A DNA stretch of 31,957 bases from a virus: positions 1 through 31,957 of IMG/VR virus record IMGVR_UViG_3300007533_000002; one strand, 5' to 3'. Within the stretch, counting starts at the first letter, position 1. Every line of letters begins with the position of its first letter. This document shows positions 11,492 through 31,957 of the stretch, one piece after another. The translations under genes and the position numbers were made by a program. Under the pieces are notes generated by a model, which searched no databases, was not told where the DNA came from, and saw only the letters and a list, made by a program, of their open reading frames with translations.

Positions 11492-11565
11492 AAAAACAAG
11501 AAGTAAAAGCTAGAGAGCTTGAAGAAATGACAAAAAAAGTAGTAAAACTGACCAAGGAGAAAAAA

Positions 11566-12831
11566 ATGATTGCTACGCATGCGCCCAAAATTTTTAACGC
11601 TAAGCTGAAAGCAAGCGGATTAACAGCAAGAATTGATGCTACAGTACCCGATCACATTATATGCTCAAAAACTACCACAATGCAACGCGAATTTTGGGGT
11701 TGTCCGGTAAGCGCGGGAGATATAAAACATTGGAGACAAGCTGCAGAGATATTACCAAAGAGCAAAAATTACACTCAAAATATACCGAACCTGACAGATA
11801 CACATTTGAAACAAATAATACTGCCGACAAATTGGGCAAAAAATGATTATGTAAGCGTTACACCCGTTGCGAGTATGGGAGTGCTACATGAGCTGCATCA
11901 TCGCGTGTATGAAATGAATCTACCCTACAAAAAATGGGTCATTCAGCCGAATAGTAGTGCATGGGCAAACCATGGAGAAGCAATATTGTCTCAAAAAGGA
12001 GCACTGAGATTACTACGGAGAGGAGCAAAAAAAAATCAAGAAAGCAACTGGACCGGCGATTTCGTGCAACTAACAGCTCGGTGTGAGCGAATGAATGTGT
12101 CGGGGGGGATGATATCGGTAGGCTTTCCTGCAATCACAGCAATCGGTGGATTGGTACACTCATTAGAGCGACTAATCGAAGCAGACATTGAGTTTGCGCT
12201 TGGAATTAAATATGCGCAATGGCTATCTGGAGTACCGAAAATAACAACTTACAAAAGATCGCAAGGAGCATTTCATGGAAGAACAAAAAGTGGAAAAATC
12301 GAAGTGAGGCCAGGATATATAACAGAAGAAATCGTAGCAAACTGCGAAATAGTACTACTTTTACGAACTAAAGCAGATAAACAAGCGCTAGCAAAAGAAC
12401 TGGAAAATAAACATAGATTAGCAGGTGGTGATTTGTTTGATGTAAAAATTGCGATTATTAAAAATGAAAAAGCACCGGTGGCTAGCTATCTAAGAGATGC
12501 ATCAATAGATTTAATTAAAAAACGCGAACAAGCACACGAACAAGAACAAATCGATACGCTGCAAACAGCGTTAGAAATGTACGGCATGCACGGAGAGTGG
12601 CGAAAAGGTAAATGGCACCAACCCGAGATAAGTTACACTTTAAACCAAACAGGCTATGCGTTTCTAGAAATACCGACCAGTCGAGAGGGGTCGCGCAATA
12701 ATTATCCGCACGCCTGGGCCGAACCAGTTTTTTCGTTAATTACACAAAATAGCATGAATGAGTCATGCTGGTGGGAAAGAAAGAGCGCGCCATTTGGCAT
12801 AATATGGGAAGGAAGACAGAGTGCCGAATAG
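11566..12831 (+). CDS. stand-alone compact Cas8f-Cas5f fusion protein (type I-F3-like), probable CRISPR antagonist
   Basis: Protein of 421 aa from the ATG at 11566, preferred over 11527 because AAGGAG lies six bases before it. The order of conserved segments matches the natural Cas8-Cas5 fusion of Tn7-like I-F3 elements (Tn6677, about 640 aa): ATHAPKI at 3-9 (HNPKF there), YVSVTPVASMGV at 95-106 (YISLSPVASLSM), GALRLLRRGAKK at 145-156 (GAFRMLKSGAKF), GFPAITAIGGLVHSLER at 186-202 (GIPSLTAFFGFVHAFER), RLAGGDLF at 284-291, and a C-terminal GYAFLEIP block. About 110 residues that form the Cas8 helical bundle are missing between the Cas8 and Cas5 parts, as is an N-terminal stretch. Cas8f and Cas5f hold the crRNA 5' handle and read the PAM. 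With no Cas7, Cas6 or nuclease nearby, it may act as a decoy subunit in a host I-F complex. Confidence 0.85.
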   Translation: MIATHAPKIFNAKLKASGLTARIDATVPDHIICSKTTTMQREFWGCPVSAGDIKHWRQAAEILPKSKNYTQNIPNLTDTHLKQIILPTNWAKNDYVSVTPVASMGVLHELHHRVYEMNLPYKKWVIQPNSSAWANHGEAILSQKGALRLLRRGAKKNQESNWTGDFVQLTARCERMNVSGGMISVGFPAITAIGGLVHSLERLIEADIEFALGIKYAQWLSGVPKITTYKRSQGAFHGRTKSGKIEVRPGYITEEIVANCEIVLLLRTKADKQALAKELENKHRLAGGDLFDVKIAIIKNEKAPVASYLRDASIDLIKKREQAHEQEQIDTLQTALEMYGMHGEWRKGKWHQPEISYTLNQTGYAFLEIPTSREGSRNNYPHAWAEPVFSLITQNSMNESCWWERKSAPFGIIWEGRQSAE

Positions 12832-13216
12832 ATTAAATTTACCACAATTAACAGTAACAAAAGAATGCAACTTAGACGCGCAGTACAAAGTATATGCGAA
12901 AGCTAAGACCAAAACAAAAGAATGTCCAATGTGTACTCAAACGGAAATCGTGAGATACGGAAAATACAAATCATATCTTCACGATATACCGATAAAAAAT
13001 AAACCAACAGTTATCATATTTGCACGGTCAAGATACCGATGTAATTCGTGTCGAAAAACATTTCTGGAAAGAGTCCCATATAGATATGAACAAAGAATGA
13101 TGACAGAGAGATTAATTGAATTCATTAAGATGGAAAGTGTCCGGAGAAGCATGTGCAGTATAGCAAAAGAAATCGGAGTGCATGAAAAAACAATCCGTGA
13201 CATCTTAAAGGAGTAA
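12821..13216 (+). CDS. zinc-ribbon plus HTH protein derived from an ISL3-type transposase N-terminus
   Basis: Protein of 131 aa overlapping the cas8/5f-like gene by 11 bases, so probably cotranslated. Residues of about 35-85 form a zinc ribbon (ECPMC and RCNSC) around RYGKYKSYLHDIPIKNKPT, the N-terminal pattern of ISL3 transposases. A helix-turn-helix follows (SMCSIAKEIGVHEKTIRDIL) and the protein then stops. The whole DDE catalytic domain, some 300 residues in real ISL3 transposases, is absent, and no remnant follows. It looks like a domesticated DNA-binding domain. As the last gene of this operon it may be its regulator, in the manner of Aca repressors; that role is inference. Confidence 0.78.
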   Translation: MPNRLNLPQLTVTKECNLDAQYKVYAKAKTKTKECPMCTQTEIVRYGKYKSYLHDIPIKNKPTVIIFARSRYRCNSCRKTFLERVPYRYEQRMMTERLIEFIKMESVRRSMCSIAKEIGVHEKTIRDILKE

Positions 13217-14053: not shown

Positions 14054-14707
14054 ATGATTATTGGAATGTTGAATCAGAAAGGAGGGGTGGGTAAAACTAC
14101 TCTTTCCGTTTCTATCGCTCATGAATTAGCTAGAGATGATAGAAATCGACCCGAAGACATTTTACTAATTGACGCCGATACACAACAAAGTGCATTAAGC
14201 TGGTCAGAAGTAAGAGAAAATGAGCTCCCATTCACTGTGATCGGATTAGCTAAAAAATCGTTACACCGAGATTTGCCAGCGATTGGGAAAAATTACAAGC
14301 ATATCATTATTGACGGTCCACCCCGAGTTGCTGAACTAACACGTTCGTGCATAATGGCCTCCGATATAGTTATTATTCCCTGCACTCCCAGTCCCTACGA
14401 TATTTGGGCGTCTGAAGAAACAATACAACTTGTAAAAGAAGCCACGATATACAAAGAAAAACTTAAATGCTTTTTTGCGATAAACCGTAAAATCGCAAAC
14501 ACGGCAATCGGGCGGGATGTGGTTCAAATTTTAAACAATAGGGATATGCCGCTATTATACTCATACGTTTGCCAGCGCGTGATCTTTGCTGAAGCCGCTG
14601 CATCAGGGAAAACCATATTTGACTTGGCACCCGACAGTAAAGCTGCTCAAGAAATAGAAAACTTGGTATACGAGATTTTAGGTATAAAGAGGATGATAGA
14701 TGGCTAA
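14054..14707 (+). CDS. parA: ParA-type partition ATPase (type Ib, ParF-like)
   Basis: Protein of 217 aa, the short ParA form without an N-terminal DNA-binding domain. The deviant Walker A motif KGGVGKTT is at residues 9-16, LLIDADTQQSALSW at 37-50 is the A' region, and HIIIDGPP at 83-90 is Walker B. ParA ATPases of this type bind nonspecific DNA and move plasmid copies apart when stimulated by a small centromere-binding partner. That partner is the next gene, overlapping by eight bases (ATGGCTAA). SD AGGAAC precedes the start. A partition locus in a phage with no integrase points to plasmid-like prophage maintenance. Confidence 0.93.
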   Translation: MIIGMLNQKGGVGKTTLSVSIAHELARDDRNRPEDILLIDADTQQSALSWSEVRENELPFTVIGLAKKSLHRDLPAIGKNYKHIIIDGPPRVAELTRSCIMASDIVIIPCTPSPYDIWASEETIQLVKEATIYKEKLKCFFAINRKIANTAIGRDVVQILNNRDMPLLYSYVCQRVIFAEAAASGKTIFDLAPDSKAAQEIENLVYEILGIKRMIDG

Positions 14708-14906
14708 AAAAATCACTATTAAAAATCCGAAGTGTAAAGCTGAATCTGCGGAAGAATGGATTTCAAGCCGGGAAGGAATGAAACGTCTAACCATTGATGT
14801 GCCTTTATCACTTCATTCTAAGCTTAAAATAGCCTCAGTTAAAGAAGGGCAACCCATGGGTGAATTAGTGAGAGATTGTCTTACTAAATATTTATCAAAA
14901 GAGTAA
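14700..14906 (+). CDS. ParG-like ribbon-helix-helix centromere-binding protein
   Basis: Protein of 68 aa. The last 40 residues have the ribbon-helix-helix pattern: a strand MKRLTIDVPLSLHSKL, then helices KIASVKEGQPMGELVRDC and LTKYL. The N-terminal 28 residues are basic and flexible, where ParG-type partners stimulate the ParA ATPase. The size and overlap with parA match the ParF-ParG arrangement. It would bind repeats at the partition site and repress its own operon. The AACTTAAAT repeats on both sides of the gene pair are the likely sites. Confidence 0.82.
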   Translation: MAKKITIKNPKCKAESAEEWISSREGMKRLTIDVPLSLHSKLKIASVKEGQPMGELVRDCLTKYLSKE

Positions 14907-15510: not shown

Positions 15511-15896
15511 CACAATCCTAGTTTGTCACTTAATTCACTCAAGCTAATATTGAAGACAGTACAAAATCGCAGGATAAATTTAATCCCCGCCATTTGAGCA
15601 TCGTTTTCAATATTAGCAATCGTGATATAGGCGCACCCCATCATAAACGCTAATTCTTCACGACTGATACCGTGGGACTCGCGGTGCTTTTTCATGACTT
15701 TGGCAAACATTTTTTGAAAATACTCTGGGGTATATTTTTTTTTCCGTTTATTATTCATCTCTAGCTGTGAAATAAGTTTAATTACTTCCTCACGGCGCTC
15801 ATGTTTTGGAGTGCGGCGACGAACCGCCTTAGTTTCGTGATTTTGAGTCTTGGATTTCTTTTGCCCACTCCGGGAATTCTTTACACCTTTGCTCAT
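15510..15896 (-). CDS. HTH (XRE-type) DNA-binding protein with basic N-terminus
   Basis: Protein of 128 aa starting at MSKGVKNSRSG, fixed by AGGAG six bases before the ATG at 15896; the frame is open further upstream but overlaps the previous gene. The first 60 residues are strongly basic. The last 65 form an XRE/Cro helix-turn-helix (HRESHGISREELAFMMGCAY then ITIANIENDAQ). It may be a regulator of the replication operon or a repressor of lytic genes; it is the only Cro/CI-type domain in the window. It overlaps the loader-like gene by 68 bases. Confidence 0.82.
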   Translation of the reverse strand: MSKGVKNSRSGQKKSKTQNHETKAVRRRTPKHERREEVIKLISQLEMNNKRKKKYTPEYFQKMFAKVMKKHRESHGISREELAFMMGCAYITIANIENDAQMAGIKFILRFCTVFNISLSELSDKLGL

Positions 15897-16293
15897 ATAT
15901 GCTCCTGATTCTGCGTGCAACAATTTTCCCGGCCTCCATGCCATTTTTTTGTGCTTTCGCTTCTGCCTCGTCAAGATTATCCGATAATCGCACGAAGTCC
16001 TGAAATGTGAAAGTATCTTTTTGCTCTGGGAGAGCTCTATAAACCAGTTGAGTTGCTTTTCTTGCTTGTTCAACCCTTGTGATAAAATCAATGGGATATA
16101 AATATTTTCCGCGCAAAGATTCGCATTTTAATATATTCATCCACGCATGCCATAACTCATCGATTGTATATTTTTTAAGTAACTTTATCCATACATGCAA
16201 AGAAAACTTTGCCGTTTCATGATCATGGGTATACATGTTATGGAATTTAAATATTTTCGATAGAAATCTCACCAACTTCTGATTCGGGTTCAT
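15829..16293 (-). CDS. possible replicative helicase loader (P-like), low certainty
   Basis: Protein of about 154 aa following the O-like initiator gene, with which it overlaps by 47 bases. Mainly helical and rich in Lys, Trp and Glu: VWIKLLKKYTIDELWHAWMN, GKYLYPIDFITRV, then a charged C-terminus (DNLDEAEAKAQKNGMEAGKI). In lambda-like phages the gene after O encodes the helicase loader P, and a WxxxL...YPxxFI layout is loosely reminiscent. That is positional inference, with no P-loop visible. The start is uncertain: ATG at 16293 or at 16236, neither with a good SD. Confidence 0.6.
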   Translation of the reverse strand: MNPNQKLVRFLSKIFKFHNMYTHDHETAKFSLHVWIKLLKKYTIDELWHAWMNILKCESLRGKYLYPIDFITRVEQARKATQLVYRALPEQKDTFTFQDFVRLSDNLDEAEAKAQKNGMEAGKIVARRIRSIYEQRCKEFPEWAKEIQDSKSRN

Positions 16294-17287
16294 GCTCAAT
16301 TACCCCATCTTGCTCATACTCATTAGTGTTATATGTTTCAATCACTTCATTAACCATCGAATTAAACTCCTCACTTTTACGCTGTGAGGGAGACTTGGGA
16401 GGAGTTAATTCTTCAGTGGTCTGATTAATTTCCATAAAGTGTTCGATACGCTGCGCATCTCGCAGAATAAGTCCAATATCATTGTAGATTTTGCTTTGAT
16501 CGTTAAATCCCATGTGAAAAGAACTTTTAGCACATCCCTCAATAGCTGAACATAAATCTTCCTCAGAATACCCCAGCTTGAGTGCTTTTTGGATGGTACC
16601 GAGTCTCTTGTCATCTAAAGCTGCTTTCTTTTTCTTCATGACTGTACACCAATGATCAAATATCCCTCTTTCGCAGTTAGATTTAGATTTAGATTTAGAT
16701 TTAGATTTAGATTTAGATTTAGATTTAGATTTAGGGCGCACATTGAAATCACACTTAGACTCCCCTTCGTAAGGGCTTGCGTCATTAAGGCTAAGAAGCC
16801 CTTCTGGAGGGCTTGCGTCATGAGGTATAAGAAGCCCTTCTGGAGGGCTAGATAGATAGCGATTACACGTTAATTCAAAAGGGGAGACGTCTTTATAAAC
16901 TTCAAAAAACTCAGGTAGAAACTCTAGATTGGGCAAATGGGAGAAAATTTTCTGCAATCCCCGCGTCATCTTGTTGGTTGGAGTTAAATTCAATTCCTCG
17001 ATTTGTTGGTAGAAATAACTTTTTATCCAGATATAAGAGTTAAGCTCATCATAAGCACAAAAGTTGATGCTTTTCAGCTTTTCTAACGCTTCTGTTACTT
17101 CCTCTAACGTCAAATTTAAGCGGGAACCGCCGGCCAACAGATTGAGTTGGTAAATGCCGAGGTTATTAATGTCACCGTTGGTTAACAAATAAACATAAAA
17201 TAAGCGTTGTGCGGTGGTCAATTTCTTCATGATATGGGGAGTCTTCCCCAAATATAAATGTCGTGAAACCGGAATAAAGTTCGACAC
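16247..17287 (-). CDS. O-like phage replication initiator with embedded repeats
   Basis: Protein of 346 aa starting at a GTG with GGAG eight bases upstream. Residues of about 20-110 look like a winged-helix initiator domain (KLTTAQRLFYVYLLTNGDIN; LEEVTEALEKLKSINF). The middle has 12-residue repeats (SPPEGLLIPHDA, SPPEGLLSLNDA, SPYEGES) followed by a Lys-Ser dipeptide run of nine units. The C-terminal part (IFDHWCTVMKKKKAALDDKR, CSAIEGCAKSSFHMGFNDQS, IGLILRDAQRIEHFME) matches the end domain common to phage replication O/organiser proteins. It is the first gene of the leftward replication operon. The repeats in its DNA are a candidate origin, as in lambda O. Confidence 0.88.
   Translation of the reverse strand: MSNFIPVSRHLYLGKTPHIMKKLTTAQRLFYVYLLTNGDINNLGIYQLNLLAGGSRLNLTLEEVTEALEKLKSINFCAYDELNSYIWIKSYFYQQIEELNLTPTNKMTRGLQKIFSHLPNLEFLPEFFEVYKDVSPFELTCNRYLSSPPEGLLIPHDASPPEGLLSLNDASPYEGESKCDFNVRPKSKSKSKSKSKSKSKSKSNCERGIFDHWCTVMKKKKAALDDKRLGTIQKALKLGYSEEDLCSAIEGCAKSSFHMGFNDQSKIYNDIGLILRDAQRIEHFMEINQTTEELTPPKSPSQRKSEEFNSMVNEVIETYNTNEYEQDGVIEHEPESEVGEISIENI
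16681..16734. repeat. hexamer microsatellite (ATTTAG) x 9 in the initiator gene
   Basis: Nine perfect tandem copies of ATTTAG on the plus strand, plus a degenerate tenth at 16675-16680. On the coding strand they encode a Lys-Ser dipeptide run. The tract is 83 percent A+T and lies next to the iterons, so it could be the unwinding element of an origin. It is also prone to slippage in steps that keep the frame. Confidence 0.92.
16760..16850. repeat. three iterons with 36-bp period (candidate replication origin)
   Basis: Palindromic 19-mers recur at exact 36-bp steps: AAGCCCTTCTGGAGGGCTT at 16796-16814, the same with one end change at 16832-16850, and a diverged CTCCCCTTCGTAAGGGCTT at 16760-16778. 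Each is an inverted repeat of six to seven bases around a short centre, like lambda O-binding iterons. They lie just upstream (in gene sense) of the AT-rich hexamer tract, the same order as in lambda ori. Confidence 0.7.
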
Positions 17288-31505: not shown

Positions 31506-31957
31506 TCACAGCCATGAGGTAAGCGCATCGGCCGCCATACCTGCTATATTACCCCACGTGTGAGATTTGCTAGCAGCTTTATCAGCCTCGTTTTTACCCA
31601 TCTGATTATACATATTAGCTATATCACCACCCGTCGCTTCATCCCATGAGCCTTGTTGGGTAGCCGCTTGTTGTCCTCGCCCAGCAAAGCCAGTCAATCC
31701 ACCAAGATATTGATTCCATACGCCAAATAAATTATTTAAATAATTTTGTTGATCTTGCTCGGCTATATTTTGATTAAATTGGGCTAGTCCTTCCTTCTCA
31801 TCGTTAGACCCCAACATCCCACTCGCAGCATCGGCTGCCGTGATCCCTTGATCACCAGCGGCAATTTGATGTTTAGCCCAAGGGGACTGTTGATAGTGCT
31901 GCATAAAGTTATTAATGAATTCATTTGGATCGGCCATCTGTCCATAGGCGCCCCACA
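31506..31957 (-). CDS. gp7-type DNA ejection protein, C-terminal part (start lies at 277 across the junction)
   Basis: C-terminal part of the protein that starts at 277. Reading as an independent gene from the internal ATG at 31937 (MADPNEFINN) would miss the first 58 residues, because the frame stays open to the window end and continues in the left copy. The tail is Ala/Gly-rich and ends in MAADALTSWL. The gp20-like gene starts 10 bases further on with SD GAGGGTG, so both are probably translated from one late mRNA. P22 gp7 is the nearest known counterpart by size and order. Confidence 0.7.
   Translation of the reverse strand, partial: WGAYGQMADPNEFINNFMQHYQQSPWAKHQIAAGDQGITAADAASGMLGSNDEKEGLAQFNQNIAEQDQQNYLNNLFGVWNQYLGGLTGFAGRGQQAATQQGSWDEATGGDIANMYNQMGKNEADKAASKSHTWGNIAGMAADALTSWL
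31835..31957. repeat. terminal direct repeat, right copy (circular closure)
   Basis: Exact second copy of bases 1-123. It lies inside the coding region of the gp7-type ejection protein, whose start codon is only found in the left copy at 277. Confidence 0.95.

Follow-up and report, generated by a model that had tools for sequence, protein, structure and literature searches.

A predicted theta-type replication origin within the initiator gene of an uncultured phage

The initiator gene and its genomic setting

The window analysed here is the whole of the IMG/VR virus record IMGVR_UViG_3300007533_000002, a stretch of 31,957 nt that begins and ends with an exact 123-bp direct repeat (positions 1-123 are identical to 31835-31957); the genome, about 31.8 kb in length, is therefore probably complete. 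It encodes a P22-type portal (PF16510), a RecE/RecT/SSB module, and an initiator whose gene contains the repeats described below (Table 1). PHROG 1701 (DnaD-like helicase loader; 1e-15) covers residues 1-139 of the initiator and PHROG 16167 (replication initiation protein; 3.6e-24) covers residues 186-314; the protein hence combines a PHROG 1701 N-terminus with a PHROG 16167 C-terminal domain. An AlphaFold2 model built from 28 aligned sequences predicts with confidence a winged helix at residues ~20-140, in which a helix-turn-helix and a wing are visible, and a C-terminal domain at residues 200-290; between these two confident domains, residues 150-198 are predicted to be disordered, with pLDDT below 50. 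Structural matches of this model to winged-helix proteins in the PDB were weak (best E = 0.045).

Table 1 Features of the initiator locus. Positions are those of the window.
Feature	Position	Strand	Description
Initiator gene	16247..17287	minus	346 aa, GTG start
Parts of the initiator			N-terminal winged helix, disordered linker, C-terminal replication domain; based on PHROG matches and AlphaFold2 model
36-bp repeat 1	16815..16850	minus	palindromic core CCCTccagaAGGG; encodes SPPEGLL
36-bp repeat 2	16779..16814	minus	perfect 19-bp palindrome AAGCCCTCCAGAAGGGCTT; encodes SPPEGLL
Repeat 3, degenerate	16743..16778	minus	core CCCTTacgAAGGG; encodes SPYEGES
AAATCT hexamer tract (TTAGAT tract)	16677..16734	minus	encodes (KS)n; candidate DNA-unwinding element
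156-aa gene in P (helicase loader) position	15829..16299	minus	assigned by position only

The end of the initiator gene is overlapped by the 156-aa gene, whose product has no Pfam or NCBIfam match, only a weak PHROG match, and no detected homology to lambda P or to the loader of a relative. Its single-sequence structural model is weak, all-helical and, with a pLDDT of 57, too poor for use. The window proteins scanned include no other initiator, no polymerase and no DnaB, no second iteron array beside A+T-rich DNA was seen within the window, and the window has 1 DnaA box where 3.9 are expected. GC skew was considered as a pointer to the origin and set aside; it tracks gene direction and marks no origin.

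Several other genes of the window were recorded in passing. A ParA partition ATPase (NF041546, 6.5e-74) is encoded with a small downstream protein at 14054-14906 on the plus strand and, as no integrase was found among the window proteins scanned, the phage may persist as a plasmid. A 434-aa protein encoded at 11527-12831 on the plus strand matches Csy2 (Cas5f; PF09614, 9.4e-7, above gathering) and weakly matches Csy1; no further cas gene was seen, and an adjoining ORF at 12821-13216 is of the Zn-ribbon/HTH, ISL3 type.

Palindromic repeats and a hexamer tract in the linker-coding DNA

Three palindromes of the form CCCT-N5-AGGG follow one another in the initiator gene at a step of exactly 36 bp, and both this array and the hexamer tract beside it encode the disordered linker. 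The arms of repeat 2 are 7 bp long and free of mismatches, repeat 1 has a single mismatch in its outer arm, and repeat 3 retains CCCTT/AAGGG alone, such that the symmetry of its core is preserved while its centre is altered. The earlier note on this DNA had described three 19-bp palindromic iterons at 36-bp steps; the step is exact and the description fits repeat 2 perfectly and repeat 1 nearly so, but it is slightly generous for repeat 3, which keeps only the core. Repeats 1 and 2 are identical at 21 of 22 positions in the palindromic core and at 10 of 14 in the spacer, and use the same codons at every identical residue.

The motif CCCTN5AGGG occurs four times in the window, where base composition predicts 0.18 sites, and three of the four lie in the array; the array's 22-bp motif has no match elsewhere in the window. 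We also used a synonymous null, in which the protein was held fixed and codons were redrawn from the phage's own usage. Three palindromes were recovered in 0 of 20,000 redraws (mean 0.037) and the match at an offset of 36 within the array (52/84) had P = 1e-4, although both values must be interpreted cautiously, given that the null assumes independent copies and plain tandem duplication would inflate their significance.

The hexamer tract comprises 58 bp, or 9.7 copies with a 100% match. Its 54-bp core is 83% A+T, which reproduces the base composition reported earlier; the tract forms the least stable 54 bp of the initiator gene and belongs to the 0.1% of the window with the lowest stability. 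All nine Lys codons are AAA and all nine Ser codons are TCT (P about 7e-8 under window codon usage), a uniformity consistent with a DNA repeat that was expanded by slippage or retained as DNA. Because the initiator gene lies on the minus strand, the iterons precede the tract in the reading direction, as they do in lambda.

Iterons in the genes of distant relatives

Single-sequence scans recovered no near relatives of the initiator, its 156-aa neighbour or the portal, no full-length relatives of the initiator above about 31% identity were found, and an HMM search of the genomes of RecT relatives found no related initiator. In IMG/VR, profile searches yielded 364 sequences related to the winged helix; in GTDB genomes they yielded 59 related to the full initiator or to one domain of it, mostly in prophage-like loci of Burkholderiales and Enterobacterales. 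About 100 of the relatives, from proteobacterial phages and prophages, have a winged helix, a block of DNA repeats, a hexamer tract and a swappable C-terminus; the winged-helix domain keeps its repeat block and tract even where the C-terminus differs, and the next gene encodes DnaB, a DnaC/IstB-like protein or a P-like protein. C-terminal homologues with unrelated N-termini gave an alignment too diverse to serve as a search query.

We counted iterons in the linkers of 77 non-redundant relatives, allowing at most one mismatch and considering both strands. These linkers hold 176 copies of an 11-bp unit, AAGCCCCTT/AAGGGGCTT, compared to 31.4 +- 4.8 under synonymous resampling, a six-fold enrichment, and 97 of the 99 spacings between neighbouring units are 11 bp. 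Since a step of 11 bp shifts the reading frame, consecutive units are translated in different frames (EAPS, KPLR, S...); across the relatives the units occur in all three frames and both orientations, with some phages carrying them on the opposite strand (EGASKGL) and others in mixed orientation. The earlier note had held that DNA function probably shapes the encoded repeat, and had pointed to synonymous conservation in relatives as a check. As the window has no near kin, the comparison was made on the equivalent block of the 77 wider relatives, where the iteron codons proved near-invariant: in a per-codon analysis the excess of synonymous identity was 0.50 in iteron codons vs 0.07 elsewhere (P = 1.4e-10), which supports the proposal. 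At the level of sequence, these results show that the relatives' repeats are preserved as DNA, which the protein would read through as a floppy linker.

Pairs of units are largely confined to the initiator gene: the related loci, 769 kb in all, contain 168 within it and 3 elsewhere. The three outside pairs (L034:4963, L132:4966 and L134:4974) lie 27-38 bp before the initiator start codon and possibly serve autoregulation.

A second cluster is found further upstream in the gene. In 73 of the 77 relatives an additional 11-bp unit is present at gene nt 150-240, nearly always at 180-210, in the DNA that encodes EGASKGL; the region holds 146 units vs 29.3 +- 4.8 under synonymous resampling, whereas 7 and 1 units were counted in two control segments from other parts of the N-terminal coding region. 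Its synonymous codons are almost invariant (relatives L012-L197, e.g. L049, L041, L013 and L017), and alignment to the predicted model of the window's initiator places it at the likely recognition helix, residues 61-73. The window's own initiator gene lacks this second cluster.

The hexamer tract of the relatives is usually (CARGAR)n, encoding (EQ)n, and has an A+T content of 55% vs 44% for the gene, a value low enough to make a role in melting less clear in these phages. The PHROG 1701-type initiators of Klebsiella ST974-OXA48phi18.2, Escherichia phage Fraca, Acinetobacter phage A3926.3 and prophages of Duganella and Janthinobacterium share with the window the winged helix, iteron block, hexamer tract and variable C-terminus. 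They differ in having direct 11-bp units, a (CARGAR)n tract read as (EQ)n and a second pair of units in the recognition-helix DNA, whereas in the window the half-sites form inverted pairs every 36 bp, the tract is (AAATCT)n read as (KS)n and a second cluster is missing.

The window's repeats can nonetheless be related to the family unit. Each 36-bp repeat parses as AAGCCCnnnnG + AAGGGnnnTCT + a 14-bp spacer, and the linker contains the related half-sites AAGCCCT / AAGGGCTT, although it has no exact AAGCCCCTT units and arranges its half-sites differently. When an iteron matrix derived from the relatives was applied to the window, linker sites took ranks 6, 10, 11, 27 and 47 among some 64,000 positions, those at 11 and 47 being the half-sites of repeat 2; this weak match is suggestive only, as two of the ranked sites are identical copies. 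Given that the family iteron is an 11-bp unit, the 19-bp palindrome of the window is better read as two inverted units, and by these sequence comparisons the window looks like a divergent member of the family.

Interpretation as an origin and alternative explanations

We infer that theta-type replication of the phage starts from this segment, located within the linker-coding part of the initiator gene, and we place the probability of this reading at about 0.84 from the computed layout, its significance, the predicted disorder and the conservation of the repeats as DNA in relatives. It is further supported by the apparent completeness of the genome, in which no other initiator gene was found among the proteins scanned and no second iteron array was seen, and the lambda-type layout that the earlier note had proposed fits well with the disordered linker, the low duplex stability and the relatives' synonymous conservation. 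In the mechanism we envisage, the winged-helix domain would bind the repeats, read here as 11-bp-type half-sites in three inverted pairs that recur every 36 bp, and form a nucleoprotein complex, strain from which would open the adjacent AAATCT tract; the C-terminal domain, the 156-aa neighbour or both would then deliver the host replicative helicase. As the linker is unstructured, the protein would tolerate any peptide that the DNA dictates.

One may postulate instead that the array is an ordinary in-frame tandem duplication beside a slippage-expanded (KS)n linker, with no function as DNA. Disordered linkers readily acquire both a 12-residue repeat and a perfect hexamer run, and the codons shared by repeats 1 and 2 at identical residues resemble those of a recent duplication. 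The palindromic core is better conserved than the spacer, however (21/22 vs 10/14), repeat 3 retains its symmetry with a changed centre, and the relatives hold DNA repeats in the same slot with near-invariant synonymous codons, such that we regard this scenario as unlikely. A similarly low probability is assigned to the repeats being an operator, for autoregulation of the initiator or for copy number, with the true origin elsewhere. Iterons of plasmids often serve both as origin and in autoregulation, and in three relatives additional units sit immediately 5' of the start codon; the window's array, however, lies mid-gene and adjoins the least stable DNA of that gene, and the window offers few DnaA boxes and no other iteron array beside A+T-rich DNA. 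Finally, each copy could form a short stem, as expected if the palindromes were mRNA hairpins (a terminator or attenuator) or a selfish palindromic element, but predicted RNA folding is not better than that of shuffled sequences (z = -0.78), no terminator-like site is listed at the array and the 22-bp motif is unmatched elsewhere in the window, which leaves this explanation very improbable.

The inferred origin has its closest precedent in lambda, where O dimers bind inverted-repeat iterons and open an adjacent A+T-rich region (PMC5043065; see also PMC7466680). In both phages the iterons lie in the middle of the initiator gene and are followed, in the reading direction, by the gene's least stable DNA; in our lambda control the iterons are at O nt 349-433 and the least stable 54 bp begin at 436, 3 bp past the last iteron. 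The lambda iteron also has CCCT...AGGG inverted arms, with an arm spacer of 6-7 bp in the lambda matches vs 5 bp in the window, and the iterons number four in lambda, spaced at 20-24 bp, compared to three at 36 bp in the window. The helicase-loader gene stands next to O in lambda, a slot occupied in the window by the 156-aa gene, which is a loader candidate by position only. The resemblance is one of analogy: the window's initiator has no Pfam match to PF04492 (Phage_rep_O, the lambda O family), which the lambda O control matched at 5.7e-36, and an hhalign comparison of the two initiators gave a probability of 0.1%; by profile comparison there is no detectable homology, and the label "O-like" used in the earlier note holds only by analogy.

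Repeats inside the gene of an origin-binding protein are established for lambda and have been reported for P22 and phage L, whose gene 18 origins lie within the coding region of that protein and, in phage L, consist of six imprecise repeats of the 11-bp unit TGTCCAACGGA (PMC8022706). This 11-bp period is that of the window's relatives, although the repeat sequences differ; the second gene in P22 and L is a DnaB-type helicase, which was not found in the window. The window does have a P22-type portal. An origin of the PICI type, in which iterons flank an A+T-rich region 3' of rep (PMC6092414), was considered and rejected, given that the window's repeats all lie within the gene and on a single side of the tract.

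Further origins within initiator genes are those of TP901-1, r1t and SPP1. In the literature searched we found no description of iterons conserved across frames and strands or of a second cluster in recognition-helix DNA, and nothing on the EQ-linker family. Taken across the family, the evidence leaves evenly poised the proposal that winged helix, iterons and hexamer tract form a single travelling initiator-origin cassette that swaps helicase-recruiting C-termini, in which the recognition-helix DNA is itself an iteron pair in most relatives and the two clusters lie about 255 bp apart; the window would then be a divergent member that has lost the inner cluster and whose linker units were rearranged into inverted pairs at 36 bp.

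For the window, the analysis provides a predicted origin for an uncultured and apparently complete phage. Its relatives offer a large-scale demonstration that the sequence of a protein can be set by origin DNA, with one 11-bp unit read in all three frames and on both strands inside a protein linker, and 11-bp units together with a hexamer tract supply a ready marker for origins in many proteobacterial prophages whose initiators are annotated only as hypothetical or DnaD-like. In Vibrio phage D478 (L002, 2896-3639), the initiator shares only the C-terminal domain with that of the window and its linker contains different, short repeats of the TGCTAGCA type at 10-bp steps, which suggests that linker-embedded repeats recur with other N-termini.
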